Positions 33,521 through 49,622 of a stretch of DNA of 64,000 bases are shown here, piece after piece. Origin of the DNA: Hyphomicrobiales bacterium (GTDB lineage Bacteria; Pseudomonadota; Alphaproteobacteria; Rhizobiales; Beijerinckiaceae); assembly GCA_017302635.1 (NCBI GenBank), contig JAFLCX010000001.1, positions 434,001 to 498,000 on the forward strand. The letters are read 5' to 3'. How positions within the stretch are numbered: position 1 is the first letter of the stretch; the number at the start of each line of letters is the position of its first letter. Under the pieces are notes generated by a model. It was not told the origin of the DNA and did not search any database. It worked only from the letters and a program-made list of their open reading frames with translations. The position numbers and the translations under genes were made by a program.

Positions 33521-33655
33521 GCTAGCCTCCATCCCTCAAGAGCCGGGGCCTTGCCGCCCTCTTCGCCGATCACGATAAAAGCGCTCGCGCGCCGTGACCA
33601 GACGGATTTGCCTCTCGTGACGCAACTCTCTAGGAAAGCGCCGGGAGGCAAGATT

Positions 33656-33669
33656 GTTTATATATAAAC
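33656..33669. promoter_or_regulatory. palindrome GTTTATATATAAAC on the acyl-CoA dehydrogenase promoter
   Basis: A perfect 14-bp palindrome; matches extend outward three more pairs after one mismatch (33652-33673). On the minus strand TTTACA (33684-33679) and TATAAA (33662-33657), 16 bp apart, form a good promoter for the acyl-CoA dehydrogenase gene, with the palindrome on the -10. The same 14-mer lies before the ETF-QO gene at 49530. The tsaC-like gene starts 36 bp away on the other side and may also be affected. Confidence 0.6.
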
Positions 33670-33705
33670 TATCTGACTTGTAAACACCCACCTTGAACGA
33701 AATCG

Positions 33706-34674
33706 ATGATGACGACGCGCCTTGCTACGGACACCTGTTCCCTCGCCGAAGCCGGTCGGCTCCTGGCCGAAGGTGCGCTTGTCGCGTTTCCGACCGAGAC
33801 GGTTTACGGACTCGGAGCCGATGCTACAGACCCCAAGGCCGTGGCGCGGATTTACTCGGCGAAGGGTCGTCCCAGTTTCAATCCTCTGATCGCGCATGTC
33901 GGCACGGTGGAAGCGGCGCTCAGGCTCGGTGTTTTCAATGACGATGCCCGGAAGCTCGCGGCCACCTTCTGGCCGGGTCCGATGACGCTGGTCGTGCCGG
34001 CGGCGCGCGATTGTGCGGTTTGCGATCTGGCCCGGGCCGGGCTGGATACCGTCGCGATCCGCGTTCCGGTCGATCCGGTCGCGCGCGCCATCCTGCAGTC
34101 GGCCGGTCGGCCGATCGCCGCACCGAGCGCCAACGTCTCGGGCCATGTCTCACCTTCCGAGGCGCAGCACGTGCTGGCCGATCTCGATGGAAAGATCGAC
34201 GCGATCGTGATGGGGAGCGCTAGCAGAGTGGGTGTCGAGTCATCGATCTTTGCGTGCCTGAAGGGCGACACGATCCAGCTGCGCCCCGGAGCCGTGACGC
34301 GAGCCGAGGCCGAGCAGGTCATCGGGCGCGCGATCGCGATACCGGACGAGGTCAGCGAGACGAGCCCGCTTTCACCCGGCCGCCTCGCCTCGCATTATGC
34401 CCCGCGCGCACCGCTGCGGCTCAATGCCCTTGAAGTCCGACCCGGAGAGGCCTGCCTTGCATTCGGGCAAGAAATACCTCCGGGAGCAACAGCGGCGCTG
34501 ACCCGCAATCTCTCGCCTTCCGGCAGCCTCGAGGAGGCCGCAGCGAACCTCTATGCCAGTTTGCGGCATTTGGATTCACTTTCTCCTACAGGCATCGCAG
34601 TGGTCAAATTTTCCGAGGAAGGGCTTGGAGAAGCAATATTTGACCGCTTATTGAGAGCTGCCAGCCCTCGGTAA
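33706..34674 (+). CDS. L-threonylcarbamoyladenylate synthase (Sua5/YrdC/TsaC type)
   Basis: 322 residues: an N-terminal YrdC domain (GALVAFPTETVYGLGADATDP, KGRPSFNPLIAHVG, PSANVSGHVSP) and a C-terminal Sua5-type domain (LSPGRLASHYAPRAPLRLNA). It makes threonylcarbamoyl-AMP for the t6A37 modification of tRNAs reading ANN codons. No clear ribosome-binding site precedes ATG 33706. The gene is divergent from the acyl-CoA dehydrogenase operon. Confidence 0.93.
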   Translation: MMTTRLATDTCSLAEAGRLLAEGALVAFPTETVYGLGADATDPKAVARIYSAKGRPSFNPLIAHVGTVEAALRLGVFNDDARKLAATFWPGPMTLVVPAARDCAVCDLARAGLDTVAIRVPVDPVARAILQSAGRPIAAPSANVSGHVSPSEAQHVLADLDGKIDAIVMGSASRVGVESSIFACLKGDTIQLRPGAVTRAEAEQVIGRAIAIPDEVSETSPLSPGRLASHYAPRAPLRLNALEVRPGEACLAFGQEIPPGATAALTRNLSPSGSLEEAAANLYASLRHLDSLSPTGIAVVKFSEEGLGEAIFDRLLRAASPR

Positions 34675-34738
34675 ACCACTCGTTTATGACTTAAGTTCAA
34701 TGCGACTCAGGGTTTCACCCCCTGTCATCGGCAGTTTG

Positions 34739-34752
34739 GTTGCTATATAAAC
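34739..34752. promoter_or_regulatory. degenerate copy of the GTTTATATATAAAC motif before the LysR gene
   Basis: GTTGCTATATAAAC matches the palindrome of 33656 and 49530 at 12 of 14 positions, with one half-site intact. TATATA here (34744-34749) with CTGTCA (34722-34727), 16 bp apart, would be a promoter for the LysR gene starting at 34801. If the motif is an operator, this is its third copy within 16 kb. Confidence 0.4.
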
Positions 34753-34800
34753 TGGTTTGGGACGGTTTTGCGAAACCAACAAGAACCTCGGCGGAACCCG

Positions 34801-35715
34801 ATGACTCAACCCCTTGCCTGGGATGATTTTCGCCTTGTGAAGGCCATTGCGGATGCGCGCTCGCTGGGTGGCGCAGCCGAGGCCCTGACGGTGAACAACT
34901 CGACCGTCTTCCGGCGTCTCAACACGCTGGAAGATCAGCTCGGTGTTCGCATTTTTGAGCGCGCGCGCACCGGATACATGCTGACCTCAGCGGGCGAGGA
35001 AATGGTGGCTCTGGCAACGCGCATGTCGGAGTCGATCATCGAATTCGAGCGTCGGATTGCCGGTCAGGATGTGCGCCCCTCGGGCGAGTTGCGGGTCACG
35101 ACCACCGATACGATGTTCTCGGATCTGATTGCACCGGCTTTCTGCGCTTTTCGCGAGAAATTTCCGGAGATTCTGCTCGATTTCATCATCGACAACCGGC
35201 CGCTCAATCTCTCGCGTCGGGATGCGGATGTCGCCATTCGCGCGGCCGTCGATCCGCCGGAGACTCTGGTGGGTCGCCGCGTCGGTTCGATCGCCTGGAG
35301 CGCCTATGCGTCGAAAGCGCTGATAGCCCAGCACAAGCTGGACCCGAAGGACCCGGCGGGCTTTTTGACCTCCGGCATCCCGTGGATCGGGATGAGCTAC
35401 CCCATGCATTCGATGACTCCGACGAAATGGCTGGAGGACAACATTCCGCCGGAAAATTTTGTGGCGAAAGTCAGCGCCGTGTCGGCGGTGGAAGATGCGA
35501 TTGTGGCCGGCATCGGCGCCGGAATACTGCCCTGTTTCATGGGGGCGAAGAGGCCGGCTCTGGTCAAGCTTCCGCTGACGCCGAAGGCCGATTCCAGCCT
35601 CTGGATTCTCACCCATCCGGATCTGAAAAAGGCCGCGCGTGTACGCGCGTTCCTCGATTTCTTCGGTCACGAACTCACGCGCCAGCGGCGTCTGCTCGAA
35701 GGCGAGGAAGGCTGA
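34801..35715 (+). CDS. LysR family transcriptional regulator
   Basis: 304 residues. The N-terminal helix-turn-helix is WDDFRLVKAIADARSLGGAAEALTVNNSTVFRRLNTLEDQLGVRIF, and the C-terminal part is a periplasmic-binding-like effector domain (PSGELRVTTTDTMFSDLIAPAFCAF). Ligand unknown. ATG 34801 is preferred over an in-frame ATG at 34768 because it follows GGCGGA and matches the usual LysR start. The stop is 12 bp from the convergent MFS gene, which is a possible but unproven target. Confidence 0.93.
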   Translation: MTQPLAWDDFRLVKAIADARSLGGAAEALTVNNSTVFRRLNTLEDQLGVRIFERARTGYMLTSAGEEMVALATRMSESIIEFERRIAGQDVRPSGELRVTTTDTMFSDLIAPAFCAFREKFPEILLDFIIDNRPLNLSRRDADVAIRAAVDPPETLVGRRVGSIAWSAYASKALIAQHKLDPKDPAGFLTSGIPWIGMSYPMHSMTPTKWLEDNIPPENFVAKVSAVSAVEDAIVAGIGAGILPCFMGAKRPALVKLPLTPKADSSLWILTHPDLKKAARVRAFLDFFGHELTRQRRLLEGEEG

Positions 35716-35727
35716 GTTTCAGGGGCT

Positions 35728-37014
35728 TCAGGCCGGTTGTGGCGCGAGCCCATCACGCGGCGCGGGCTTCTCGCTGATCGGCAGGTTGATGAGCGCCGAG
35801 GCGACCCCCAGCCCGATCGAGAGCCACCAGACGACATCGTAACTGCCGGTCTTCTCGAACAAAATTCCGCCGAGAAACACACCGAGAAACCCGCCCACCT
35901 GATGCGAGAAGAAGGCGAAACCATAGAGCATCGCCATGTAGCGCGGGCCGAACATGATGGAAACGAGCGCAGCTGTCGGCGGGACGGTCGAGAGCCATAA
36001 AAGCCCCGTGAAGGCCCCGAACAGCATGGCGGAAACCACGCCGACTGTGGTGGCGTAACCGAACACCGTGATCGGCTGATGCACATAGGCGAATGAGGCC
36101 AGCAGCCCCAAGGTCGCGACGGATCGCGCGATATAGATAATCGCGAGAATCCAGCGCTTCGGCATGCGATTGCCGAGCCACCCGGCTGAGAGTGAGCCGA
36201 CAATATTGAACAATCCCACCAGCGCGAGCGTGATGCCTCCCACCTCGGGCGGCAGGCCGACATCCTTGAAATAGCTCGGCAAATGCACCGTGATGAAGGC
36301 AAGCTGGAAGCCGCAGGTGAAGAAGCCCAGCACCAGCAGCACATAGGAGCGATGCCGGAAGGCTTCGGCCAGCGCCTGCCGCACAGTCTGGCCCGGCACG
36401 TTTTCGTTGGCCGCTGAAGATGCCTTCCCGCCCTGCGGCTTTGTGGCGAGAGCAATGGCCAGCGGCATGGCCAGCAATGTCAGCGCGGCGAACACGATCA
36501 GCGCGTTCTGCCAGCCATAATCGCGGATCAGCACCACCGAGAGCGGCGAGAACAGGAACTGCCCGAAAGAGCCGGCCGCGGTGCCGAAGCCGAAGGCCAT
36601 GCTGCGCTTCTCGGGCGGCAGCAGCTTGGTGAAGGCCGCCAGCACCAGATTGAAACTGGATCCCGCAAGGCCGAACCCGATCAGCACGCCCGCCGTGAGG
36701 TTGAGCGTGAGCGGGTCCGTCGCGACGGTCATGAAATAAAGCCCGAGCGCATAGAGCGCCAACCCCGCCCAGAGCACACGCAGAGTGCCGAAGCGATCGG
36801 CGATCGCCCCCATGAAAGGCTGCCCCACACCCCACAGGAGGTTCTGCACCGCGAGCGCCAGCGCGAAGACATCGCGCCCCCAGCCATTCGCCGAAATGAT
36901 CGGCTGCTGAAAAAAGCCCATCGAGGCGCGCGGCCCGAAGCCGATCGTCGCGATCATGCAGCCGCACAGGATGATGAGGCCCGCAGGCACGACGCGGGTG
37001 GTGGTAGAATTCAT
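35728..37014 (-). CDS. MFS transporter
   Basis: 428 residues with about 12 membrane helices. GFFQQPIISANGWGRDVFALALAVQNLLWGVGQPFMGAIADRFG contains the loop 2-3 motif region of the major facilitator superfamily. The sequence style resembles the monocarboxylate/oxalate-formate group, so an organic acid is a likely cargo, but this is inference. It is convergent with the LysR gene. The 156-bp stretch between it and glyS shows no further gene. Confidence 0.9.
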   Translation of the reverse strand: MNSTTTRVVPAGLIILCGCMIATIGFGPRASMGFFQQPIISANGWGRDVFALALAVQNLLWGVGQPFMGAIADRFGTLRVLWAGLALYALGLYFMTVATDPLTLNLTAGVLIGFGLAGSSFNLVLAAFTKLLPPEKRSMAFGFGTAAGSFGQFLFSPLSVVLIRDYGWQNALIVFAALTLLAMPLAIALATKPQGGKASSAANENVPGQTVRQALAEAFRHRSYVLLVLGFFTCGFQLAFITVHLPSYFKDVGLPPEVGGITLALVGLFNIVGSLSAGWLGNRMPKRWILAIIYIARSVATLGLLASFAYVHQPITVFGYATTVGVVSAMLFGAFTGLLWLSTVPPTAALVSIMFGPRYMAMLYGFAFFSHQVGGFLGVFLGGILFEKTGSYDVVWWLSIGLGVASALINLPISEKPAPRDGLAPQPA

Positions 37015-37170
37015 TCGGCTCGCCCTCCCGCCCGCGCCAGCTCAGCGCCGCATCTTCGCGACGCTAGCCTGCTTTCCTGCATTCCAAAAGCGGATTGATG
37101 GAATGAAATGATCAGAACGGCGAATGGATAGAGGCGCCACCGAAATCGTCTCGCAAGGATAGGAAAGCCC

Positions 37171-39534
37171 CTAACCCGCGATTTTCGTGAAATCTGCAAC
37201 CTGCCGCGTCACACGCCGAAGGGTGGCGAGAAGCGCCAGACGATTGCGGCGGATGGCCGGATCATCAGTATTGACCATGACAGCCTCGAAGAAGGCATCA
37301 ACCGGGCCACGGAGCGACGACATCACCCGCATCGCGGCCTCGAAGTCCTGCTTCCCGAGCGCGTGCAAGGCGGCCTCGCCCGCCGTCAAGAGCGCGGCGT
37401 GCAGCGCCTTCTCGCTCGGCTCGCGGAGCAAGGCTGGGTCGGCCGCAGCTTCGAACGCGCCCTCGCCGTCTTTCTTTTCCTCGGCGCGCAGGATGTTCGT
37501 CGCGCGCTTGGCTCCGGCGAGCAGGGATTTTCCGTCTTCCGTGGCGAGGAATTCGCCGAGAGCTTCCACGCGGCGCACAACGAGGAGGAGATCATCATTC
37601 GCTTCGCCATTGGCGAGCACGGCATCCACCAGATCATGCCGCGCGCCCTGGTCGCGGAGCATGACTTTCAGGCGATCATGGAAGAAGGAGAGGAGGTCAA
37701 CTGACTTGTATTTCGAAATTTTCCTAAGCTCGATCGCAACAAAGTGAAATCGGCCCAAGTCTTCAAATGTCGATTGCTCCAAAAATTCGATCCAGTGCTG
37801 CGCAGCAATACGATTCATACAGTCTGGGTCAATTGGTGGAATTTTATCTGAAACAAATTCATATAGCTCTTGGAGCCTCGAAGTTTCGCCAGCAGCTTGT
37901 ATTACCTGATCTGCCAATCCGGCATGTATCCAGTGACCGAAAAAGTTTTCGACGGATGACCACCCCACCCTCACCCCATTCTCCACCACAAGGCGGATCA
38001 CCCCCAAAGCCGCTCGCCTGAGCGCATAGGGGTCTTTCGAGCCGGTGGGTTTCTCATCGATGGCCCAGAAGCCCACGAGGGTATCGAGCTTGTCGGCGAG
38101 GGCGACCGTGATCGAGACCGGGTCGCGCGGCACCGTGTCGTTCGGGCCAACGGGCTTGTAATGCTCCTCGCAGGCGGCGGCCACGGAAGCATGCTCGCCG
38201 ATGAGCCCCGCGTAAACACGACCCATGAAGCCTTGCAGTTCGGGAAACTCGCCCACGACTTCCGTCTGCAAATCCGCCTTGCAGATGCGAGCCGCGAGAT
38301 CGACCTCGGCGGGGTCCACCCCCGTGACCTTGCACAGTTCCTTCGCCAGCGCGCGGATGCGCTCAATCCGGTCCCACTGGCTGCCGAGCTTCTCGTGGAA
38401 GGTGACGTTCCTGAAGCGCTCCAGCCGCTTGAAGTCGCGATCCTCGGCCCAGACGCGCTTGTCGGTCTCCCAGAAAAACTTCGCGTCCGAGAGCCGCGCG
38501 CGGATCACGCGCTCATTGCCACCGATGATGACCTTGCCGCCATCTTTCGCTTCCACATTCGCGGTGAGCAGGAAGCGATTGGCGAGCTTTCCATCGCTCT
38601 TTTTCAGCACGAAACACTTCTGGTTCGCGCGGATCGTGGCGCGGATCACTTCCGCCGGCACATCGAGGAAGGCTTCCTCGAAAGCACCCATCAGCACGAC
38701 CGGCCATTCGACAAGGCCCGCGACCTCTTCGAGCAGGCCCTCATCTTCCACCACCTCAAACCCCTGCGCGAAGGCGAGGTTCTGTGCATCGGTCTTGATG
38801 ATTTCCTTGCGGCGATCGGCATCCAGCACGACCTTCGCGGCCTCGAGTTTCATAACGTAATCATCGAAGCGGCGGATGCGAATTTCGCCGGGGGCCATGA
38901 AACGGTGACCGTAAGTCACGTTCCCGGCCTTCAGCCCATCCACTTCGAAGGGAACGATCTCGGTGTCCTCGGTTTCAGCACCGAAAGTCGCGAGAATCGA
39001 GCGCAAGGGTCTCACCCAGCGCAAGCTGCCCGGCGCGGCGCTCGCGGCACCCCAGCGCATCGATTTCGGCCAGGGGAAAGCGCGGATAATGCCGGGGAGA
39101 ATCTCGGCCAGCACATCCAGCGTCGGCTGCCCGGATTTCTCGATGATGGCGAAGGCCGTGGCATCCTTGCCGGTGCCACGCACCTCGACCGACAACCCGC
39201 GCTCGGGCAGGGAGACCGAATGCCCCTCATAGAGCTCGAAGCGATGAAACTCGCTTTCCGGCACGCCAATGGATTTCAGAAAGCCGAGACGCGCGGCCTC
39301 CGGCGCGGAAATCCGCGGGCCTTTCTTCTCCTCGCGCACATCCGGCTGGCGTGCGGGCAGGCCGGCAATGGTGAGCGCGAGGCGGCGCGGCGTCGCGAAG
39401 GCCTTCGCACCCTCATAGGTGAGCCCACGATCGACCAGAGCGTTGGTGACGAGCTTGCGCAAATCCTCCGCGGCCTGCCTTTGCATGCGGGCGGGGATTT
39501 CTTCGGAGAAGAGTTCGAGCAGGAGATCGGGCAT
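37171..39534 (-). CDS. glyS: glycyl-tRNA synthetase beta subunit
   Basis: 787 residues. [27 protein letters not shown] is the standard start and [26 protein letters not shown] and GAKRATNIL are standard C-terminal parts. With GlyQ it forms the alpha2-beta2 enzyme charging tRNA-Gly. Residues about 528-611, between the conserved [12 protein letters not shown] and LLSFFHDRL segments, are unlike the rest. The DNA there (37701-37950) is about 43% GC by hand count against 60-63% in the flanks, with the frame intact. The gene begins 4 bp after the isochorismatase-like gene and has no ribosome-binding site of its own. Confidence 0.95.
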
Positions 39535-39538
39535 GGAT

Positions 39539-40141
39539 TCAGATCTGGGCGGAAAGGAAGGTCGCGCAGGAGAAAATTCCCGCAAAGCGATCGGAGAGAG
39601 CGGCAAGCTCGGCACGATGCAGGGTCTCGGCGCTCACCACGCCACCATCGCCGTCGGGCAGGTCCCGCGTGGCGCAGGCATCGGCGAGAATGGTGGTCGA
39701 GAAGCCGAGATCGAGCGCGGCGCGCGCGGTGGATGAGACGCACATATGCGTCATGAAACCAATCATCACGAGCTTGGTGCGGTCCGTAGCAGCAACAGCC
39801 TCGGTGAGCGCGGTTTTCGCAAACGAGTTCGGCAGCGGCTTCTCGATCACGGTTTCGCCAGCCACCGGCGCAAGCGCATCGACAATCTGCCCGCGGGGCG
39901 CATCGCGATCGAAAGCGCCGCCGGGACGACCTTTGTGCGCGATGTGGATCACCGGAGCACCCGCCGCGCGGTAGGCGGCCAACACGGACGCGCATTGCGC
40001 GATAGCCGGGGCAACGCCGGTGAGGGCCAGCGGGCCTTCAAGATATTCGTTCTGGGCATCGATGATGACGAGAACGCTTTCCGAAATCGGGGGCGGAACG
40101 GGCATGGCACCCGCCATGTCGAGGAGTGTTCTGGGGGGCAT
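39539..40141 (-). CDS. isochorismatase-like cysteine hydrolase
   Basis: 200 residues. [19 protein letters not shown] supplies the catalytic Asp, [12 protein letters not shown] the Lys, and [21 protein letters not shown] the Cys nucleophile. The family covers nicotinamidase, ureidoacrylate hydrolase and many orphans, so the substrate is open. It starts one base after the stop of the VOC gene and ends 4 bp before glyS, so it is embedded in the glyQ-glyS transcript. Confidence 0.9.
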
Positions 40142-40142
40142 G

Positions 40143-40544
40143 TCAGCTTTCCCTTCCGATCTCACCCTGGAGATCCTGCCCAAAGGCAATGTGATGGCCG
40201 TCAGGCGTCTCGATCATGAATTCGATGACACCATAGGGCTGTTTTTCAAGCGGGGCAGCGAATGTGCAGGCACTTCGGGTCAAATCGTCATGCAGGGCTT
40301 GTGCATCGTCGACCCAGAAATAGGCGTCCATCAGCCCGGATCGCTGGTCACGCCGCAACATTGGCGGACCGGAGCGCGCCATTCCGATCATCTGATAGGC
40401 ACAATCACGCCTCAGAATCGCGAATTCAGGCGGCGAGCCGAAGGTCTCCACCACCGAGAACCCGAGTTTCCCGATCCAGAAGGCCACTGAACCCGCGACA
40501 TCAACAGAAGTCAGCACGCCCGAATGAGCGACGACGCGCGCCAT
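40143..40544 (-). CDS. VOC family protein (glyoxalase/bleomycin resistance fold)
   Basis: 133 residues with the paired beta-alpha-beta3 modules of the vicinal oxygen chelate fold: SVDVAGSVAFWIGKLGFSVVETFG, AYFWVDDAQALHDDLTRSA and IEFMIETPDGHHIAFGQ. Metal ligands are only partly recognisable, so it could be an enzyme or a binding protein. Its ATG shares its A with the glyQ stop (TGATG), so translation is coupled to glyQ. Confidence 0.87.
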   Translation of the reverse strand: MARVVAHSGVLTSVDVAGSVAFWIGKLGFSVVETFGSPPEFAILRRDCAYQMIGMARSGPPMLRRDQRSGLMDAYFWVDDAQALHDDLTRSACTFAAPLEKQPYGVIEFMIETPDGHHIAFGQDLQGEIGRES

Positions 40545-41482
40545 CACCCGCCCCCCGCTTCTGTCTGCACCCAAGCCGCGCCGCAGGCTTTCGCGAGTTC
40601 GCGCACCTTGAGGATATAGCCTTGCCGCTCGGTCACCGAGATCACGCCGCGCGCATCAAGCAGATTGAAGGCGTGAGAGGCCTTGATGCATTGGTCATAG
40701 GCCGGCAGCACCTGCTTGTGACGCTGATCTGAGCCCTCCGGCGGTGCGCCGGCGGCGAGGAGCGCGAGGCATTCCTTCTCGGCTTCGGCAAAGTTCCGGA
40801 AGAGCTTCTCGGTATCGGCATACTCGAAGTTATGGCGAGAATATTCCGCCTCAGCCTGTTTGAACACGTCACCGTAAGTGACCTTGCCCTCGCCTTCGAG
40901 GCCGTTGAAGTTCAACTCGAAGCCGTTATCAACCCCCTGCAGATACATGGCGAGGCGTTCGAGTCCGTAGGTGAGTTCACCCGCGACCGGCGCGCATTCC
41001 TGCCCGGCCACCTGCTGGAAATAGGTGAACTGGCTCACCTCCATGCCGTCGCACCAGCATTCCCAGCCCAATCCCCACGCCCCGAGCGTCGGACTCTCCC
41101 AATCATCCTCCACGAAGCGCAGATCGTGCACGCCGGGGTCGATGCCGATCGCGTAGAGGCTTTCGAGATAAAGTTCCTGAAGATCGGGTGGCGATGGCTT
41201 CAGGATGACCTGAAACTGGTAATAATGCTGGAAACGGTTCGGGTTTTCACCGTAGCGGCCGTCCTTCGGACGACGCGAGGGCTGGACATAGGCCGCATTC
41301 CACGCCCTTGGGCCAAGGGCACGAAGCGTTGTTGCCGGGTGAAAGGTGCCGGCCCCCACCTCCATGTCGTAGGGCTGAAGGATCACGCACCCCTTCGAGG
41401 CCCAGAAATTCTGCAAGGTCAGGATCAGCCCCTGGAAGGAGCGGGTGGGGTCAAGAGAGGCGGGAACGGCCATCGCAGTCAT
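40544..41482 (-). CDS. glyQ: glycyl-tRNA synthetase alpha subunit
   Basis: 312 residues. [44 protein letters not shown] and [20 protein letters not shown] are unmistakable class II GlyQ sequences. It holds the catalytic site for glycyl-adenylate formation. ATG 41482 is chosen because GGAG sits 7 bases upstream; an ATG three codons later is also possible. Two small genes separate it from glyS. Confidence 0.97.
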
Positions 41483-41595
41483 GAACAACTCCAGCAGAAT
41501 CAGGGCCATCCTGATCGGGATGCGGCTCCATCGGAGCGCATCGATCTCCAGTCGGATCAACCGACGTGACCCGAAAAGCCCTGTTTCGAGAGAGT

Positions 41596-41628
41596 TGCTC
41601 TAGAGCACTTTTCACCGGCTGCGAAAAG
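41596..41628. repeat. palindromic intergenic element
   Basis: TGCTCTAGAGCA (41596-41607) is a perfect 12-bp palindrome followed directly by CTTTTC (41608-41613) and GAAAAG (41623-41628), a second stem. The combination TCTAGAGCA plus a TTTTC...GAAAA arm resembles dispersed intergenic repeats known in Hyphomicrobiales genomes. It lies in the 250-bp gap before the Gly-rich secreted protein gene. Confidence 0.4.
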
Positions 41629-41732
41629 GGTCTCGAAAAAAATCACTCCGACCTTTGAACCTCCTGTCGTGCCGCCGCGACCAAGAGGCATCGGGGGCAT
41701 TGGTGCCCTTGCGCGAAAATCAGGAGGAACAC

Positions 41733-42026
41733 ATGAACACGATCTCGAAATTTGCGGCCATCGCCTTCACGGTTCTGGCTCTGGGTGCCTCGGTGCAGGC
41801 CCAATCACAGGGTGGCGGCAATGGCGGCGGCCGGGGTGGCGGTGAAGGCGGCGGGGGTGCCGAGCCCGCCGGGGTGATGCTGGCTGCCGGAGGGCCGATC
41901 ACCCACGTGGTCGCTCGCGAGCGCACCCAGCGCGTTGACCAGAAGGTGCGTGACATCCCGATCTACAATTGCGGCGAAGGGATCAGCATCTCTTCCGGTC
42001 GCATGTGCCAACCGGTTCTTCGCTGA
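41733..42026 (+). CDS. glycine-rich small secreted protein
   Basis: 97 residues. A signal peptide (MNTISKFAAIAFTVLALGASVQAQ) is followed by a low-complexity Gly stretch and a conserved-looking tail RERTQRVDQKVRDIPIYNCGEGISISSGRMCQPVLR with two Cys that could pair. AGGAGG precedes ATG 41733 by 5-6 bases, a strong ribosome-binding site. Family not recognised. A likely cell-envelope or surface protein. Confidence 0.7.
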   Translation: MNTISKFAAIAFTVLALGASVQAQSQGGGNGGGRGGGEGGGGAEPAGVMLAAGGPITHVVARERTQRVDQKVRDIPIYNCGEGISISSGRMCQPVLR

Positions 42027-42035
42027 GCCGACTTT

Positions 42036-42066
42036 GCCTCCCGGTGCGCTCTCCCCGCCGGGAGGC
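42036..42066 (+). terminator. hairpin after the Gly-rich protein gene
   Basis: GCCTCCCGG (42036-42044) pairs perfectly with CCGGGAGGC (42058-42066) around a 13-nt loop, 10 bp after the stop codon. Only a short T run follows (GTTTGG some bases later), so termination may be partial. Confidence 0.5.
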
Positions 42067-42137
42067 GCGCCGTTTGGCTGGCGTTCAGAAATGCGGGCAT
42101 AACTTTCGCTTGGGCGATCAAAGAAAGAGGACACAAC

Positions 42138-42506
42138 ATGCTTGGGTTTTCACGCCTTCTCGCAGCCTTCGTCATGGCCACCCTGATGGCTCTGACTTTC
42201 GCGCCGGCCCGCGCGGCCGGTATTCCCGCAGGCTCTGCTCTGGCGCTCGAACAGGCCGGACGCATCGACGCGGGGCAGGTGCAATACCGCTATCGTCACT
42301 ATCATGGCCGACCGGTTTACCGGCATCGCGGCTATTACGGTCGACCGGTCTATCATCATCGCCGTGTTTATCGTCCGCGCTATTACGGAGCGCCGGTCTA
42401 TTACGGTGGCCCGGTCTATGTCGGTCGGCGCTGCTTCAACCGCGTACGCTGGGTCCGGACACCCTACGGCCCTCAGCGGCGCGTGGTGCGCGTCTGCCGC
42501 TGGTAA
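42138..42506 (+). CDS. Tyr/Arg/His-rich repetitive secreted protein
   Basis: 122 residues. A signal peptide (LLAAFVMATLMALTFAPARA) precedes a repetitive region built on the unit (Y)GRPVYxHR: GRPVYRHRGYY, GRPVYHHRRVY, GAPVYYGGPVY. Two Cys lie in GRRCFNRVRW and VVRVCRW. The mix is strongly basic and aromatic, as in proteins that bind polysaccharide, metals or the outer envelope. Function unknown. AAAGAGGAC lies just before the ATG. It may share a theme with the preceding Gly-rich protein. Confidence 0.7.
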   Translation: MLGFSRLLAAFVMATLMALTFAPARAAGIPAGSALALEQAGRIDAGQVQYRYRHYHGRPVYRHRGYYGRPVYHHRRVYRPRYYGAPVYYGGPVYVGRRCFNRVRWVRTPYGPQRRVVRVCRW

Positions 42507-42513
42507 GGGACGA

Positions 42514-43266
42514 TCATTCGAACAGGGGCAGGTTTGCCTTGCCCCTGTTCAGGCCCTCGGCGAAAGGTGTGAAGCAGCCGTCGCTTTCGTGCAGCACGAG
42601 CGGCGGGAGGATGGAGAGTGGCGCGCGCGATGCTTTGGTGGCGCCCGCAAGCACGCGGATAGCCGGCTCGTCCTGCCTCGGATGAACGAATATGAGGCGA
42701 ATTCCACCGAATCGTCCTTTGAGTGCCTCGAGAACCGCACCAATCTCGTCGGCTCGATGGATCAAGACAAGCCTGCCTTTCGGCGCGAGAACGGATGTGG
42801 CCCGCCGGAGCCAGACTTGCAGACCGGAGCCTCCACCCTGCGGCTTCATCACATAGGCGGCTGATTTCGCAGTCGGCATTCGGGTCCGGCCCGCCTCATG
42901 AAACGGCGGATTCGAGAGTACGCAATCGAAGGCTTCGCGCCACGTTGTCAGCGTGCCGGGTTCCAGAATGTCGCGCTGGGCGACCTCGACGCGCCCATCG
43001 AGATCATTCGTCGCGATGTTGGCTCGAGCCAGGGCTGCAATCTCCGCGTCCTGCTCGAACAGGGTGACACGCGCCTGCGGGTTAATCTGCGCCGCACGCA
43101 AGCCCACCAAGCCGCTGGAGGCCCCGAAATCGGCTATACGAACCGCATCCGCTGGTGTCGCGGCTGCCAGCAGCACACCATCTGTGCCGGCACGGTGGCC
43201 CTTCGGCGGCTGGCTAAGCCGCAGAAGGCCACCGAAAAGCATGTCAGGTGCCGGGCAATCGATCAT
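42514..43266 (-). CDS. TrmN6-like tRNA1(Val) A37 N6-methyltransferase
   Basis: 250 residues. RIADFGASSGLVGLRAAQ is the SAM-binding start and CVLSNPPFHEAG is the NPPF/Y motif of N6-adenine methyltransferases. The opening LFGGLLRLSQPPKGHRAGTDGVLLAAA is typical of the TrmN6/YfiC group, which methylates A37 of tRNA1(Val). The start is placed at ATG 43266; no good ribosome-binding site is visible. Divergent from the polyprenyl synthase gene. Confidence 0.85.
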   Translation of the reverse strand: MIDCPAPDMLFGGLLRLSQPPKGHRAGTDGVLLAAATPADAVRIADFGASSGLVGLRAAQINPQARVTLFEQDAEIAALARANIATNDLDGRVEVAQRDILEPGTLTTWREAFDCVLSNPPFHEAGRTRMPTAKSAAYVMKPQGGGSGLQVWLRRATSVLAPKGRLVLIHRADEIGAVLEALKGRFGGIRLIFVHPRQDEPAIRVLAGATKASRAPLSILPPLVLHESDGCFTPFAEGLNRGKANLPLFE

Positions 43267-43368
43267 CGAAAAGGCAGTCCATTGCAAAGTAGGGCCATCC
43301 GCCACGTTGCAATTGTGCGTGAGAGCGTGCAAGCCTCAGCGTGAAAATGAAAAACGGGGAGCAGGACA

Positions 43369-44382
43369 TTGGGCGTCGTCGTTTCGTTCAATGAGAAGGT
43401 CGGCACCGAGGGCATCGAGCGGCTTGTTGCCCTTGTGCGCGACGACATGAACCGCGTGAACGAGATGATCCTCTCGCGGACCGGCTCGGATGTCACGATG
43501 ATCCCGGAAGTGGCGCAGCATCTGATCTCGTCCGGCGGGAAGCGTCTGCGGCCGATGCTGACACTCGCGACGGCCCAACTCGCAGGCGCAAGCGGCAATG
43601 GCCATATCCGGCTCGCGGCGGCAGTCGAGTTCATGCATACCGCAACCCTTCTGCACGATGACGTGGTGGACGAGAGCGACTTGCGGCGCGGCAAGCCCTC
43701 AGCGCGCAAGGTCTGGGGCAACGAAGCCAGCGTGCTGGTGGGCGATTTCCTGCTCGGGCAAGCTTTCCGGATGATGGTGGAGGTGGGCTCCCTCCCCTGC
43801 CTCGATGTGCTCTCGACAGCAGCAGCTGTGATCGCCGAAGGCGAGGTGATGCAACTCGCCGCCGCCAAGAACACCGCGACGACCGAGGATGATTACCTCG
43901 CCGTCATTCGTTCAAAAACCGCCGCCCTGTTCGCCGCGGCGGCGGAAGTGGGGCCTTTGCTGGCGGAAACCGGCGAAGCGCAGCGCCGGGCCTGCCGGTC
44001 CTACGGCATGAATCTCGGTGTGGCCTTCCAGCTCATCGACGATGCTCTTGATTATGGCGGATCGGGCGCCAAGCTCGGCAAGAATGTGGGCGATGATTTC
44101 CGCGAGGGGAAAATCACCTTGCCCGTCGTGCTCGCCTTCCGGCGTGGCTCGGATGAGGAGCGTGCCTTCTGGAAATCGGCGCTGGAGCAGGGCCAGAATG
44201 ATGACGCCCAGCTCGACCGCGCAGTCGAACTCCTGAAAAAGCATCGCGCGCTGGAAGATACGGTCGAGCGCGCCCGCCATTATGGCGAAGTCGCGAAAGA
44301 TGCCCTGGCGCTCTTCCCGGCCTCACCCATGCGCGAGGCCTTGGGCGAGGTGGTCGATTTCTGCATCAGCCGGGCACATTGA
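43369..44382 (+). CDS. polyprenyl diphosphate synthase (octaprenyl/decaprenyl type)
   Basis: 337 residues. Both Asp-rich motifs are present: LLHDDVVDESDLRRGKPS and LIDDALDYGGSG. It extends farnesyl diphosphate with isopentenyl diphosphate to the ubiquinone side chain; chain length cannot be read safely. The best start is TTG 43369, since GGGGAG lies 7 bases upstream and no ATG occurs in frame until codon 27. It draws on the MEP pathway (dxs and ispE are in this window) and feeds the quinone pool that ETF-QO reduces. Confidence 0.92.
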   Translation: MGVVVSFNEKVGTEGIERLVALVRDDMNRVNEMILSRTGSDVTMIPEVAQHLISSGGKRLRPMLTLATAQLAGASGNGHIRLAAAVEFMHTATLLHDDVVDESDLRRGKPSARKVWGNEASVLVGDFLLGQAFRMMVEVGSLPCLDVLSTAAAVIAEGEVMQLAAAKNTATTEDDYLAVIRSKTAALFAAAAEVGPLLAETGEAQRRACRSYGMNLGVAFQLIDDALDYGGSGAKLGKNVGDDFREGKITLPVVLAFRRGSDEERAFWKSALEQGQNDDAQLDRAVELLKKHRALEDTVERARHYGEVAKDALALFPASPMREALGEVVDFCISRAH

Positions 44383-44388
44383 GGCGCT

Positions 44389-45255
44389 TCAACTCGGCAG
44401 TTTGATGAAACAGGTCTGGGCCCACCAGTCGGGTTGATCCCGGTTTATTGCCTCGGCAGCGTGCTGCGCACGCGCGACCGAGTCAAAAATCGCGAAACAG
44501 GTCGCGCCGGAACCGGACATGCGAGCGAACTGACAGCCTTCTCTGCTCCTGAGGTGCTGAAGGACCTCGAGGATATCCGGCGCGATCCTGATCGCCGCTT
44601 CCTCGAGATCGTTGCGCGTAGCGGCCAGGATATCGAGGCCGCCGTCCTTGCTGCTTGTCGACTCCGGCTTTTCTGGCTTGTGGCGCTCCCCGTTCGCCAG
44701 CCCGAGGGCCGCGAAGACAGCCTGGGTCTCGATGGGAACTCCCGGATTGACCAGCAAAGCAGGATAGCGAAACCCGTGCAGTCGATTGCCGAGTTCGTGC
44801 CCGATGCCCTGCATCAGGCGAGGTGCTGCGGGATCAAGGCAGACCGGCACGTCGGCCCCAAGGGTGCGGGCTGCATCAAAAATCCGATGGTCGCTCAAGG
44901 GTATGCCATTCGCCTCGGCGAGTAGCCGCAACGCGGCGGCGGCGTCCGACGAACCACCACCGATGCCCGACGCCACAGGGAGGTTCTTGATCAGATGAAA
45001 GCGCCCCGTTTTCACTCGGCCGAAGCTCGCGGAAAAGGCGCGCACCGCTTTCATAACGAGGTTGTCATTCCCCGAGAGGCCGAAGGAAAACGGCCCTGAA
45101 AGGCCGAGCGATGCGGCATCTCCGGGCTCGAGGGACAGTTCATCCCCGATATCGGCGAAACTCACGAGGCTTTCGAGATGGTGATAGCCATCGTCTCGAC
45201 GCCCGAGGACGTGCAGGAAAAGATTGATCTTCGCCGGAGCGAATTCACGCAGCAT
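44389..45255 (-). CDS. ispE: 4-diphosphocytidyl-2-C-methyl-D-erythritol kinase
   Basis: 288 residues of GHMP kinase fold. EFAPAKINLFLHVLGRRDDGYHHLESLV is the IspE start and LPVASGIGGGSSDAAAALR is the ATP-binding loop; RMSGSGATCFAIF is the third GHMP motif. It phosphorylates CDP-methylerythritol in isoprenoid synthesis. It lies 17 bp after the TPR gene, probably co-transcribed, and is convergent with the polyprenyl synthase gene. Confidence 0.96.
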   Translation of the reverse strand: MLREFAPAKINLFLHVLGRRDDGYHHLESLVSFADIGDELSLEPGDAASLGLSGPFSFGLSGNDNLVMKAVRAFSASFGRVKTGRFHLIKNLPVASGIGGGSSDAAAALRLLAEANGIPLSDHRIFDAARTLGADVPVCLDPAAPRLMQGIGHELGNRLHGFRYPALLVNPGVPIETQAVFAALGLANGERHKPEKPESTSSKDGGLDILAATRNDLEEAAIRIAPDILEVLQHLRSREGCQFARMSGSGATCFAIFDSVARAQHAAEAINRDQPDWWAQTCFIKLPS

Positions 45256-45272
45256 GAAAGGGCCAGCCGAGC

Positions 45273-47039
45273 TCAGCCGCCATTCGGCTTGGGCGCTGGC
45301 GCAGGAACAACCGACGCCGAGACATCTTCGAGCCCGTGTTCAAGCTTTTTCTCGATGGCGGCTTTCTCATCCGGCTCGGGCTTGAGATCAAGCGCCTGCT
45401 GCCATTTGAAGTAGGCCTCACGACGCCGGCCGACGCGCCAATAGGCGTCGCCCAGATGATCATTGATCGTGGCATCGCCCGCACGCAACAGCACGGCGCG
45501 CTCCAGTTCGCGCACGGCCTCTTCGTAGCGACCAAGGCGATAATAGGCCCAGCCGAGGCTGTCGACGATCGCTCCATCCTGCGGCGCGAGCGACACGGCT
45601 TCGCGCAGCATCTCGAATGAACGATCGATGTTGCGGTGCATGTCGACCCAGGAATAGGCGAGATAATTCAGCACCTGCGCACGCTCGGCCCGCTCGCGGT
45701 TGGTGCGCGGGCGCGGCGGCAGCAATTCCAGCGCCTTGAGAAAATCGGGCTCCGCCTTTTCCCATTGCTTCGATCGCTCGAAGCCGATGCCTCGCCCGAA
45801 AAACAGCACCCAATGCTTGTGCTCTGGCTTCGCGGTGGCGCGGATGGCGGCATCATAAACCTCGATCGAGGCGAGCCAATCCTTCTTCACGCGGAAGATC
45901 GAGCCGAGCGTGTCCGCTGCTTCGATATCTTCCGGGTGGAGCGCCAGCAGCGCCTTCAGCGCGCCGATCGCCTCGTCGGTCTTCTCCAGCCGCTCGAGCG
46001 CGGCCGCGCGACCGATCGCGGCCCTGTTGCCGAACACCGAAGAGGGCGGAATGAGAGCGTAGGTATCGGCCGCGCGCTGATGCTGGCGCAACTGCTCGTA
46101 ATACTCGGCAATGGTGAGGGTGACGAACTCATCATCCGGTGCGAGGAAATGCGCGAATTGCATGTAGACCAGAGCCGTCAGCGGATCGCGCGCGGCGGAG
46201 CCCAAAGTCGACAGGCTGTAAAAGACCTCCGCGACCCCTTCCCCGACATCGCGCGCCAGCGGTTCGAGAACCTCGCCCTTGAACAGGGCGAGCGAGGGAG
46301 CATCGAGGAAGGCAAGACCCGGATTGCGCTCTTTCCATTGCGAGTAGATCGCCTGCGCCTCAACCGCCTTGCCGCGCCGCGAAAGCATGCGCGCATAGGC
46401 ATCGGTGAAGCGCAGACTGGCCGGATCGCTCTCATAGGCGCTTTTCAGGCGCCTTTCGGCCTCGTTCGGCCTCTTGCCGATTTCGGCCATCAGCCCGCCG
46501 AAGAAATCGCGGAAAGGGCGCAGTTCCGGATCGGAGAACCGGTCGACCGTCCGCAGGGCTCCGTCGAGATCACCCGATCCGACCTGAGTCCAGGCGCGAA
46601 GCAACGAGGTGGTGATGTCAGTGCGCCGCTCATCGCCACCGGCTCGGTCAAACGCCGCGCGGGCCTTCACAAATTCCTTGGCTTTCAGCGCCCGGACACC
46701 GAGAGAGACATGCGCCAGCGAATTGCCCTTGTCCCGCTGGACCAGCCGTTCCGCAAGACGGAAAGCATCACTCAGCCGGCCATCCACGAGGTTGGCGACG
46801 AAGGCTTGATCCAGCAATTCCGTGTTGCGCGGGTCTGCGCGCAAGGCCTGCGCAAAATACTCGGCCGCCGCTCCCAGATCACGCGAGGTGTTCGCAACAA
46901 CGCCTGCGACAAAATTGCCGGAAGCGCCGAGCGCCTCGAGCCGACGCGGCCCACCTGTCGGTGCGGCGATTGCCGCTGTGGCCAAGGCTCCGAGCGCAAG
47001 GCCCGCGAGAAGGCGCAAGCGCCAGCCCGAGCTGATCAT
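45273..47039 (-). CDS. exported tetratricopeptide repeat protein
   Basis: 588 residues. A signal peptide (LRLLAGLALGALATAAIAA) is followed by many TPR units, such as AAEYFAQALRADPRNTELLDQAF and AIVDSLGWAYYRLGRYEEAVRELERAV, LGDAYWRVGRRREAYFKWQQALDL. TPR arrays bind partner proteins. The plan (two TPR blocks, periplasmic) is common in alphaproteobacteria but no function is fixed. GGGAGAA precedes ATG 47039. Upstream lies a 264-bp divergent gap shared with the thioredoxin-like gene; no other gene was seen there. Confidence 0.85.
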   Translation of the reverse strand: MISSGWRLRLLAGLALGALATAAIAAPTGGPRRLEALGASGNFVAGVVANTSRDLGAAAEYFAQALRADPRNTELLDQAFVANLVDGRLSDAFRLAERLVQRDKGNSLAHVSLGVRALKAKEFVKARAAFDRAGGDERRTDITTSLLRAWTQVGSGDLDGALRTVDRFSDPELRPFRDFFGGLMAEIGKRPNEAERRLKSAYESDPASLRFTDAYARMLSRRGKAVEAQAIYSQWKERNPGLAFLDAPSLALFKGEVLEPLARDVGEGVAEVFYSLSTLGSAARDPLTALVYMQFAHFLAPDDEFVTLTIAEYYEQLRQHQRAADTYALIPPSSVFGNRAAIGRAAALERLEKTDEAIGALKALLALHPEDIEAADTLGSIFRVKKDWLASIEVYDAAIRATAKPEHKHWVLFFGRGIGFERSKQWEKAEPDFLKALELLPPRPRTNRERAERAQVLNYLAYSWVDMHRNIDRSFEMLREAVSLAPQDGAIVDSLGWAYYRLGRYEEAVRELERAVLLRAGDATINDHLGDAYWRVGRRREAYFKWQQALDLKPEPDEKAAIEKKLEHGLEDVSASVVPAPAPKPNGG

Positions 47040-47303
47040 GCGGTATGTTCTCCCGTGCTGCACAGGCATGGCCTCCCGGCCTTTTGCCGAAGCAAATCAA
47101 GTTGTCGCTGGGTTTCCGGGTAGCATCGAATAGCGTCAAGACAAAGGTCTTTCGCATTCGCGCGTAACCTCGGGGATCGGTGCTGACGAACTCGTGATAG
47201 GGCGGAGAGCGGTCGTGAAATGACGCAGTTTGTTTTTTAGGGCATGACAGTCTCGAGAAGCCTGCAAGGCTCCGGATCAAGACGCTCAAAAGAGGAAGAG
47301 CCC

Positions 47304-47711
47304 ATGTCGATGTCGCGCCGCACCATTCTGGCAGTTTCCGGTCTTGCCCTGACGGCAGGGCTTTTCAGCGCCGCTGCCGCCCTGCCGCCGGGCTTTGGCG
47401 ACTACACCAAGGAGAAATTCGAGGCAGCCCTGAAGGGTTCGAAGCCTGTTCTGGTGCATGTGCATGCGGATTGGTGCCCGGTCTGCGTCCGGCAGGAGCG
47501 CGCCTTCAAGGAATTGTCCGAGAGTGCTGATTTCAAGAAGTTCACCGCGGTGCAGGTGAATTTCGACATGGACACCGATTTTCGCAAAACCCACAACGTG
47601 AACAACCAGTCGGTGATCATGGTTTTCAAGGGCGGGAAGGAAACCGGACGCATCGGCGGCGTGACCGAGACGGCCAAGATTGCCGAATTCCTCGCGAAAG
47701 CCGCGCAGTAA
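47304..47711 (+). CDS. exported thioredoxin-like protein
   Basis: 135 residues. The N-terminus SMSRRTILAVSGLALTAGLFSAAAA is a signal peptide with a twin Arg, so either Sec or Tat export is possible. PVLVHVHADWCPVCVRQERAF carries the redox WCxxC, and VNNQSVIMVFKGGKETGRIGG follows the thioredoxin pattern, with Gln-Ser instead of the cis-Pro-Thr found in standard thioredoxins. A periplasmic thiol redox role is likely. AGAGGAAGAG precedes ATG 47304. Confidence 0.87.
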   Translation: MSMSRRTILAVSGLALTAGLFSAAAALPPGFGDYTKEKFEAALKGSKPVLVHVHADWCPVCVRQERAFKELSESADFKKFTAVQVNFDMDTDFRKTHNVNNQSVIMVFKGGKETGRIGGVTETAKIAEFLAKAAQ

Positions 47712-47734
47712 ATCCGCCTTTTCACGAATGAATA

Positions 47735-47764
47735 GAATGGCGAGGTCGCGCGACCTCGCCATTC
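47735..47764. terminator. 30-bp perfect palindrome between convergent genes
   Basis: Bases 47735-47749 and 47750-47764 are exact reverse complements (arms GAATGGCGAGGTCGC and its mirror). It lies 24 bp after the thioredoxin-like stop and 45 bp before the ETF-QO stop on the other strand. The strong hairpin fits a bidirectional terminator, though no long T tract follows on either side. Confidence 0.65.
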
Positions 47765-47808
47765 CTGCCGTTCCAGACCTTCGCGAGGCTCGATCGGGCC
47801 TCGGCCGA

Positions 47809-49485
47809 TCACATGTTCGGGTAAGTCGGCCCGCCGCCGCCCTCAGGGGCTACCCAGTTGATGTTCTGGGCGGGATCCTTGATGTCGCAGGTTTTGCAAT
47901 GCACGCAGTTCTGCGCATTGATCACGAAGCGCGGGTCAGTTTTTGAAGCTTCGTCCTTGTAGACGACCTCATAAACTCCGGCCGGGCAGTAAAGCCGCGC
48001 CGGTTCGCCATAAACGGGAAGGTTCTTCGCGATCGGCACACTCGCATCTTTCAGCGTGAGGTGGATCGGCTGGTCCTCCTCGTGATTGGTGCCGGAGAGG
48101 AAAACCGAAGAGAGCTTGTCGAACGAGATCATACCATCCGGCTTCGGGTATGTGATGGGTTTCACCTCCGAAATCGGCTTCAGGGTCTCGCTGTCGCGCT
48201 TGCCATGCTTGCGCGTGCCGAAAAGCGAGAAGCCGAACAGCTCGTTCGTCCACATATCGAGCGCGCCGAGTGGAATGCCGAGCCACGTGCCGAACCTCGA
48301 CCAGAGCGGCTTGACATTGCGCACCTTCCACAAATCCTTGCCGATCTCGGAAGCGCGCCAGCTTTCCTCATAGGCCACCACTTCATCATGCGCGCGACCG
48401 GCGCTGAGCGCCGCGCCGAGGTGGTCAGCCGCGAGCATGCCGGAGAGCATCGCATTGTGGCTGCCCTTGATGCGCGGCACGTTCACGAAACCGGCCGAGC
48501 AGCCGATCAGCGCGCCACCGGGGAAGCTGAGGCGCGGCACACTCTGGTATCCGCCCTCGGTAATCGCGCGCGCGCCATAGGAGAGGCGCTTGCCGCCCTC
48601 GAATGTTTCGCGGATCACGGGGTGCGTCTTGAAACGCTGGAACTCGTCGAAAGGCGACAGCGTCGGGTTCTCGTAATTAAGGTGCACCACGAAGCCGACG
48701 GCGACGAGATTGTCGTCGAAATGATAGAGGAACGAGCCGCCGCCTGTTTTCGAGTCAAGCGGCCAGCCGAAGGAATGCTGCACCAGCCCCTTCTTGTGCT
48801 TCTTCGGGTCGATCTGCCACAACTCCTTGAGCCCGATGCCGAATTTCGGCACATCGCTGTTGCGGTCGAGCCCGAATTTCGCGATGAGCTGCTTCGAGAG
48901 GTGCCCCCGCACACCCTCGGCAAACAACGTGTACTTGCCCATCAGCGCCATGCCGCGCGTGTAGCCGTCTTTCATCTCGCCGGAGCGCGCGATGCCCATA
49001 TCGCCGGTCGCGATGCCGATCACCGCGCCGTTCTCGTTGTAAAGCACCTCCTGCGCGGCAAAGCCGGGATAGATCTCCACGCCGAGCGCTTCGGCTCGCG
49101 TCGCGAGCCAACGGCACAGATTGCCCAGCGAAATGATGTAGTTGCCGTGATTGCCAAGAAGCTTGGGCATCGCGAAGTTCGGCAGGCGGATGCTGCCCGC
49201 CGGGCCGAGAAAGAGAAAATGGTCGTCGGTCACCGGCGTTTTCAGCGGGCAATCGGCATCCTCGCGCCAATCCGGAATGAGCTTGTCGAGGCCGATGGGA
49301 TCGATCACCGCACCGGAAAGGATATGCGCGCCGACCTCGGAGCCCTTTTCCACCACGACAACGGAAATCTCCGTGCCCTTCTCGGTGGCAAGCTGCTTGA
49401 GCCGGATCGCTGCGGAAAGGCCGGCAGGCCCCGCTCCGACGATAACGACGTCATATTCCATCGCGTCGCGTTCCGGCAGTTCCAT
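47809..49485 (-). CDS. electron transfer flavoprotein-ubiquinone oxidoreductase
   Basis: 558 residues. YDVVIVGAGPAGLSAAIRLKQLA binds FAD. The membrane/quinone middle part carries GGYQSVPRLSFPGGALIGCSAGFVNVPRIKGSHNAM. The C-terminus holds a 4Fe-4S site with Cys in CPAGVYE and NCVHCKTCDIKDP. It takes electrons from ETF, loaded by acyl-CoA and other dehydrogenases, and reduces ubiquinone. GAGAGGG precedes ATG 49485. Its predicted promoter contains the same palindrome as the acyl-CoA dehydrogenase operon. Confidence 0.96.
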   Translation of the reverse strand: MELPERDAMEYDVVIVGAGPAGLSAAIRLKQLATEKGTEISVVVVEKGSEVGAHILSGAVIDPIGLDKLIPDWREDADCPLKTPVTDDHFLFLGPAGSIRLPNFAMPKLLGNHGNYIISLGNLCRWLATRAEALGVEIYPGFAAQEVLYNENGAVIGIATGDMGIARSGEMKDGYTRGMALMGKYTLFAEGVRGHLSKQLIAKFGLDRNSDVPKFGIGLKELWQIDPKKHKKGLVQHSFGWPLDSKTGGGSFLYHFDDNLVAVGFVVHLNYENPTLSPFDEFQRFKTHPVIRETFEGGKRLSYGARAITEGGYQSVPRLSFPGGALIGCSAGFVNVPRIKGSHNAMLSGMLAADHLGAALSAGRAHDEVVAYEESWRASEIGKDLWKVRNVKPLWSRFGTWLGIPLGALDMWTNELFGFSLFGTRKHGKRDSETLKPISEVKPITYPKPDGMISFDKLSSVFLSGTNHEEDQPIHLTLKDASVPIAKNLPVYGEPARLYCPAGVYEVVYKDEASKTDPRFVINAQNCVHCKTCDIKDPAQNINWVAPEGGGGPTYPNM

Positions 49486-49529
49486 AGCCCTCTCCCCTGG
49501 CGCGTTCCTTCGTTCGTGAACGGCATATA

Positions 49530-49543
49530 GTTTATATATAAAC
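49530..49543. promoter_or_regulatory. palindrome GTTTATATATAAAC in the ETF-QO promoter
   Basis: This perfect 14-bp palindrome is identical to the one at 33656-33669. On the minus strand TTGCGA (49552-49547) and TATATG (49529-49524) are spaced exactly 17 bp and the palindrome fills most of the spacer, touching the -10. That is a classic repressor position. The divergent uracil-DNA glycosylase gene starts 79 bp away. Confidence 0.6.
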
Positions 49544-49622
49544 CAATCGCAATCCGATCCTTGTTTTGGATACGGCGGCACCGTAGAAAAGCAAGCCTTG
49601 GGCAAGGAATGGAGCGCGGGAA

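Follow-up and report, generated by a model that had tools for sequence, protein, structure and literature searches.

Two promoters in one stretch of alphaproteobacterial DNA carry the same short palindrome, which raises the question of whether a single regulator reads both. The stretch, referred to here as the window, comprises 64,000 nucleotides of contig JAFLCX010000001.1 (positions 434,001 to 498,000, forward strand) in the Hyphomicrobiales assembly GCA_017302635.1 (Beijerinckiaceae). It contains the exact 14-mer GTTTATATATAAAC at positions 33656-33669, at the promoter of an acyl-CoA dehydrogenase gene (ACAD1), and at 49530-49543, upstream of the gene for electron-transfer-flavoprotein:ubiquinone oxidoreductase (ETF-QO). 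The distribution of this palindrome suggests that it is the core of an operator, likely that of a single fatty-acid-degradation repressor that would block its promoters until a fatty-acyl ligand releases it.

Sites in the genome of the window and in its genus

Both copies are perfect palindromes, as had been noticed from the bare sequence of the window, and in 100 dinucleotide-shuffled versions of the window no match to GTTTATATATAAAC appeared, even with up to two mismatches. From base composition, about 1e-5 copies would be expected per 64 kb and about 0.0006 per 3.1 Mb. Within the whole genome (G000; 3,099,652 bases in 4 contigs; G numbers denote genomes and L numbers fetched loci), the exact 14-mer occurs only at these two places. 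The predicted promoters have the layouts that the original prediction described. That of ETF-QO is TTGCGA-17 bp-TATATG with the palindrome within the spacer, and that of ACAD1 is TTTACA-16 bp-TATAAA with the -10 within the palindrome. ACAD1 is reasonably called part of an operon, because a gene for an enoyl-CoA hydratase and one for a short-chain dehydrogenase/reductase (SDR) follow it on the same strand after gaps of 9 and 18 bp. A third, weaker copy in the window (GTTGCTATATAAAC, 2 mismatches, 34739-34752), absent from the earlier account, is located upstream of a LysR gene.

Allowing one mismatch in the core adds two matches to the two exact ones in G000, while the reversed-pattern control gives none. 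One precedes a second acyl-CoA dehydrogenase gene (ACAD2), downstream of which are a thiolase gene and one for a fused enoyl-CoA hydratase/3-hydroxyacyl-CoA dehydrogenase; the other precedes a FadD-type long-chain acyl-CoA ligase. A fifth site, GTTCACATATGAAC, with matching flanks, is 91 bp upstream of etfB in an etfB-etfA-3-hydroxyacyl-CoA dehydrogenase (hbd) operon. The ACAD2, fadD, and etfBA-hbd sites each differ from the extended motif by at most one mismatch. Two mismatches in the core yield one further match, the one upstream of the window LysR gene, versus two in the control. A single class of site is thus present upstream of several operons for fatty acid activation and oxidation (ACAD1, ACAD2, ETF-QO, fadD, and etfBA-hbd), and the occurrence upstream of etfBA, fadD, and ACAD2, far above the control rate, is what the original prediction had proposed looking for. 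Weaker sites, with 2 and 3 mismatches in the 20-mer ATNGTTYANATNTRAACNAT, precede a DUF2147 gene and a small gene with methylmalonyl-CoA mutase downstream of it, respectively. At up to three mismatches of the 20-mer, G000 has 21 matches versus 2 in controls, 7 of them at these pathway or weaker-site promoters.

The same promoters recur across the genus. Among 17 genus genomes, 33 sites with at most one core mismatch are present in 15, and the control is 0 in all 17. All 33 were read and are distributed over ACAD1 (9), ETF-QO (7), ACAD2 (5), fadD (5), etfBA (5), and a HerA-like/small-gene pair (2). This count omits G017 (2 sites, ETF-QO and ACAD2), G023 and G024 (1 each, ACAD2), G018 (1, phasin-like gene), G019 (1, near a glycosyltransferase-like gene), and G027 (2, with a control of 5). 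The full motif GATAGTTYATATATRAACTATC, of about 22 bp with the 14-bp palindrome as its core, comes from aligning 35 sites: four from G017, G023, and G024, and all the genus sites except those of L039 and L044 (31 of 33). The symmetry extends beyond the core that was searched: among the 70 half-sites, T is present at -2 in 67, A at -3 in 49, A at -1 in 45, and G at -4 in 35. With up to three mismatches, the 20-mer has 233 matches in the 17 genomes compared with 45 in the control, and every genome has matches.

Conservation was also assessed in loci that were fetched by the LysR protein following Sua5 and hence were not selected by motif. A site scoring at least 22 is present on the Sua5 side in 16 of the 17 genus genomes, and in the remaining locus (L298) a contig end about 600 bases ahead of LysR cuts off the ACAD1/Sua5 region. 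Together with the seven ETF-QO sites in the genus, this bears out the expectation that the motif is kept at both original promoters in close relatives. The 22 columns of the site have identities of 0.80 to 0.92 versus 0.29 to 0.54 in the flanks, a comparison on which we do not lean because the loci were motif-selected and the best-conserved window is the gene start in two of the four alignments.

Sites in the wider family

Beyond the genus, 80 loci were fetched by the ETF-QO protein from named genomes, again without motif selection. Sixteen of them, six from Bosea, have a strong site upstream of ETF-QO. All 17 strong matches in the 993,946 bases of these loci are either in that position (16) or at the ACAD1/Sua5 pair of L177 (1). 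In nine LysR-fetched loci from outside the genus, including L312 of G018, no site scores 12 or more. A scan of 397 family genomes recovered the perfect 20-mer in 189 genomes and in 25 of 43 genera, with a control of 0 in every row. Targets were read for the 30 loci that the scan gave, each from one genome. Of these genomes, 29 belong to a single genus (Bosea, by matching coordinates), and three (G088, G180, and G415) are the genomes G042, G043, and G041 by coordinates. These targets are ACAD2 (13), DUF2147 (9), ETF-QO (6), ACAD1/Sua5 (1), and an acyl-CoA ligase/GDSL lipase pair (1).

Five genomes were searched at up to two mismatches, giving 11 sites in Bosea lupini, 6 in Bosea sp. Root381, 11 in Rhizobiales bacterium 2SD, 8 in the metagenome-assembled genome (MAG) PMG_215, and 4 in MAG WY3.bin95, each with a control of 0. 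All 40 were read, and 34 are at the same pathway or at gene sets where the site recurs: ETF-QO, ACAD2, ACAD1/Sua5 (or an enoyl-CoA hydratase replacing ACAD1), fadD, a second acyl-CoA ligase, fadL, a 4HBT thioesterase, the HerA-like/small gene/methylmalonyl-CoA mutase set, DUF2147, and a MerR-thiolase pair. The other six are elsewhere (L227, L229, L231, L248, L249, and L255). The site and its targets are therefore kept in related genomes, and many more distant genomes have no site.

Several of these gene sets are worth describing in their own right. The DUF2147 gene, whose product has a signal-peptide-like start, carries the site at L097:3280-3299 (G000:C3:190779) and a perfect site in several Bosea genomes; further loci are L221, L239, L250, L327, L333, L336, L337, L339, L341, L342, L348, and L350. 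Its protein has no sequence match in the PDB at an E value of 0.01, and a role connected with fatty acids or lipids is suggested. In L098, L044, L222, L235, L244, L257, and L039, a HerA-like ATPase gene shares its site with a small gene divergent from it (about 130 amino acids, no Pfam match), and in all but the last methylmalonyl-CoA mutase follows. In G045 (MAG WY3.bin95), a site precedes a MerR-thiolase gene pair (L238:2439-3002), where the regulator gene itself may belong to the regulon. In G018, the site GTTTATATATGAAC is 44 bp upstream of a gene that is phasin-like by eye, with no Pfam match (L059:3074-3131); such a target would touch polyhydroxybutyrate storage.

Probable operator, promoter, and competing explanations

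The dyad and its position suggest how the site could act. For 35 promoters chosen from the five target groups, the best sigma70-like pair places its -10 within the site in 22 cases; in 9 the spacer contains the entire site, and 4 are arranged otherwise. In the genus ETF-QO promoters, the -10 directly follows the palindrome in all seven. A repressor is favored because the site either overlies the predicted -10 or takes up the spacer between -35 and -10, and the dyad symmetry is kept in either position, which suits a dimeric repressor excluding RNA polymerase. In the mechanism we propose, a dimeric protein would read GATAGTTYATATATRAACTATC and, once bound, would keep RNA polymerase out by covering the -10 or filling the spacer. 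A fatty-acyl ligand would then release it and open the promoters; acyl-CoA or a fatty acid is suggested as this inducer by analogy with FadR and PsrA. One putative protein would in this way turn off the genes for fatty acid activation, oxidation, and electron transfer together. The earlier claim that one repressor links acyl oxidation to its route into the quinone pool thus stands with regard to the shared site, through its targets, its conservation, and the controls, while repression is read from the predicted overlap with core promoters.

Several observations weigh against this reading. The AT-rich site itself supplies -10-like hexamers, so that some of the overlap with promoters is inherent and the -10 count is biased. 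The site is lacking in 64 of the 80 ETF-QO loci, mostly the more distant ones but also that of Bosea sp. 117 (L138); G018 (L312) keeps the ACAD1/Sua5 pair but without a site there; and 208 of the 397 family genomes have no perfect 20-mer. In G000, 14 of the 21 matches at up to three mismatches are, as far as read, away from pathway or weaker-site promoters. Both palindromes of the window are also located between divergent genes, with Sua5 across from ACAD1 and a uracil-DNA glycosylase across from ETF-QO, and these neighbors could be further targets; the glycosylase is probably not a target of the ETF-QO site.

The original prediction cautioned that AT-rich promoter cores are partly symmetric by accident. 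In favor of such an accident in a GC-rich genome, the core does coincide with a predicted -10 or spacer. The absence of matches in the shuffles, the genus control of 0 against 33 sites, the control of 0 in all rows of the 397 genomes, and the near restriction of targets to fatty-acid genes refute this caution and make chance a negligible explanation. It is also quite improbable that the site is no operator but an invariant part of the promoter, a symmetric core recognized by a special sigma factor. It does occupy a narrow range of positions with respect to the predicted core promoter (31 of 35), but it moves between the spacer (genus ETF-QO) and the -10 (Bosea ETF-QO and most ACAD promoters) while its symmetric arms are kept, and a dimeric protein suits this combination better.

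Two explanations that name other readers of the site are somewhat less remote. An activator, for example of the MerR type, might remodel or recruit RNA polymerase when fatty acids are present. MerR operators are located in promoter spacers, the ACAD2 site of Bosea and G017 has a MerR gene immediately upstream, and the MerR-thiolase pair of G045 provides a second MerR behind a site. This ACAD2-linked MerR has, however, no clear orthologue in any of the 17 genus genomes or in G023 and G024, all of which have the site (best genus match 3e-19, compared with 1e-33 or better for clear orthologues elsewhere), and it is excluded in the genus. Moreover, five of the seven MerR-ACAD2 pairs in fetched loci have no site, the genus ETF-QO spacer has a normal length (17 bp), and most other promoters have their -10, not their spacer, covered by the site. 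An activator is accordingly unlikely, and the LysR protein encoded after Sua5 is marginally less likely still as a reader governing both its own operon and the fatty-acid genes. The latter is present in all 17 genus genomes, the order ACAD1-site-Sua5-LysR is conserved in the genus, in Bosea, and (without ACAD1) in G045, and the weak palindrome precedes the gene in the window. Yet this LysR was not found at an E value of 1e-40 in G023 and G024, which have the site upstream of ACAD2; it does not adjoin Sua5 in the site-bearing L177; and two genomes that do have it, G020 and G021, lack any site at one mismatch. An even-centered palindrome on the core promoter is also unlike the usual LysR site. 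The preferred reading remains a dimeric repressor of fatty acid degradation, and the features of the window that bear on it are collected in Table 1.

Table 1 Features of the window that bear on the palindrome. Gene names given without a Pfam or NCBIfam run were judged by eye from protein starts.
Feature	Position	Strand	Basis or remark
Operator-like site, 22 bp, ACAD1/Sua5 intergenic	33652..33673 (core 33656-33669)	.	Sequence match; strong site here in 16/17 genus genomes, 17th cut off
-35 TTTACA, ACAD1 promoter	33679..33684	-	Prediction
-10 TATAAA, ACAD1 promoter, within palindrome	33657..33662	-	Prediction
ACAD1, acyl-CoA dehydrogenase	31736..33532	-	Pfam Acyl-CoA_dh domains
Enoyl-CoA hydratase/crotonase-family gene, ACAD1 operon	30971..31726	-	
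SDR-family oxidoreductase gene, ACAD1 operon	30086..30952	-	
L-threonylcarbamoyladenylate synthase (Sua5), divergent neighbor	33706..34674	+	
Weak palindrome copy (2 mismatches) upstream of LysR gene	34739..34752	.	
LysR-family regulator, syntenic with Sua5 and ACAD1; disfavored candidate	34768..35715 (likely start 34801)	+	
Operator-like site, 22 bp, upstream of ETF-QO	49526..49547 (core 49530-49543)	.	
-35 TTGCGA, ETF-QO promoter	49547..49552	-	Prediction
-10 TATATG, ETF-QO promoter, begins directly after palindrome	49524..49529	-	Prediction
ETF-QO, electron-transfer-flavoprotein:ubiquinone oxidoreductase	47809..49485	-	Pfam Fer4_ETF_QO and ETFQO_UQ-bd
Uracil-DNA glycosylase family 4, divergent neighbor	49623..50438	+	
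MarR-family regulator, best lead for site reader	308..757	+	Orthologue of Bosea MarR having site; none upstream here

Candidate regulators and related systems

The targets define a probable fatty-acid-degradation regulon, a kind of system like those of FadR, PsrA, and FadP. In PMC5343134, these three are described as fatty acid degradation regulators of gamma- and betaproteobacteria, and FadP, a TetR-family protein, as unique to betaproteobacteria among the taxa studied. The likeness to PsrA (TetR family, gammaproteobacteria) is that one operator class likewise serves fatty acid degradation operons genome-wide; FadP is comparable as a lineage-specific replacement regulator, and FadR (GntR family, E. 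coli and relatives) in the function class named there (PMC5343134). Both TetR regulators differ from the present case in that this genome offers no TetR link: the search for a co-occurring regulator that the original prediction had suggested was run for TetR, and none of the nine TetR_N matches in G000 has a site at its promoter, the best nearby score (13.5) being inside another gene. The PsrA motif also has its half-sites in another order than GATAGTTYATATATRAACTATC. FadR represses fad genes until acyl-CoA binds, and its operator has an odd center and another sequence. LiuR, a MerR-family regulator of branched-chain amino acid and acyl-CoA oxidation, is comparable because the palindrome TAACGTTTACGTAAACGTTA or a near variant, which we take to be of the LiuR type, is upstream of ETF-QO in Labrenzia, Stappia, and Roseibium (L164, L165, and L167). 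The LiuR operator is, however, ACGT-based, whereas the present site has no ACGT core, and the single MerR_1 match in G000 is beside ihfA- and fabH-like genes.

Other candidates were set aside as well. The Lrp gene of Bosea is beyond the site by the thioesterase gene, and the six AsnC_trans_reg matches in G000 are at most 39% identical to it. A Crp/Fnr-like gene beside an acyl-CoA synthetase-like gene (L121) has no site nearby. The MarR gene of L111 has two tandem GTTCAANNTTGAAC palindromes upstream (L111:1815-1850), a related but different motif; these are probably the operators of that MarR itself. Two tandem sites, GTTCATGTATGACC and GTTCACTTGTGACC (L095:3971-4012), are among the 14 matches of G000 away from such promoters. 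They are located between a putA-like gene and an Lrp-family gene that diverges from it, have a shape similar to that of the present motif, and look like the sites of another regulator.

The best lead for the putative reader of the site is a MarR-family repressor and, within that family, the MarR encoded at 308-757 of the window. In two closely related genomes (L226 and L247), the start of a MarR gene (the Bosea MarR) is 6 bases past TTAGTTTACAAGTAAACGAT, and the gene diverges from one for an acyl-CoA ligase. The window MarR is the orthologue of this protein, with 62 to 63% identity and an unchanged winged-helix segment, LAERLYVTKGNVSGLVDRLV; no site is present upstream of its own gene. Its sequence is related to those of solved MarR proteins, including CouR, YetL, and a fatty acid biosynthesis regulator. 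Within the MarR family, the comparison is with regulators of the lipid or acyl-CoA type (FabT and CouR) and, for the shape of the operator, with YetL, reading of the site by a MarR being putative. FabT controls fatty acid synthesis, and the TAGTT..AACTA arms of the site presumably resemble the YetL operator. MarR proteins usually bind palindromes of 16 to 20 bp, and HpaR responds to CoA thioesters, according to PMC10458429. A search of open-licence papers with the 14-mer and related terms found no regulator with this operator and no such operator for Beijerinckiaceae.

A more specific and rather doubtful extension is that the Beijerinckiaceae have a master repressor of their own in this MarR (308-757). 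By reading GATAGTTYATATATRAACTATC, it would couple the activation of substrates and the dehydrogenation of acyl-CoA with ETF and ETF-QO as a single on/off unit, replacing FadR, PsrA, or FadP, and the secreted-looking DUF2147 protein would be a lipid-handling member of that unit. If a common repressor does read the site, the motif would serve as bait for the regulator in culturable relatives such as Bosea, and it would give a functional setting to DUF2147 and to the HerA-like/small-protein pair. ETF-QO, the enzyme of entry into the quinone pool, would then share its control with the dehydrogenases feeding it.

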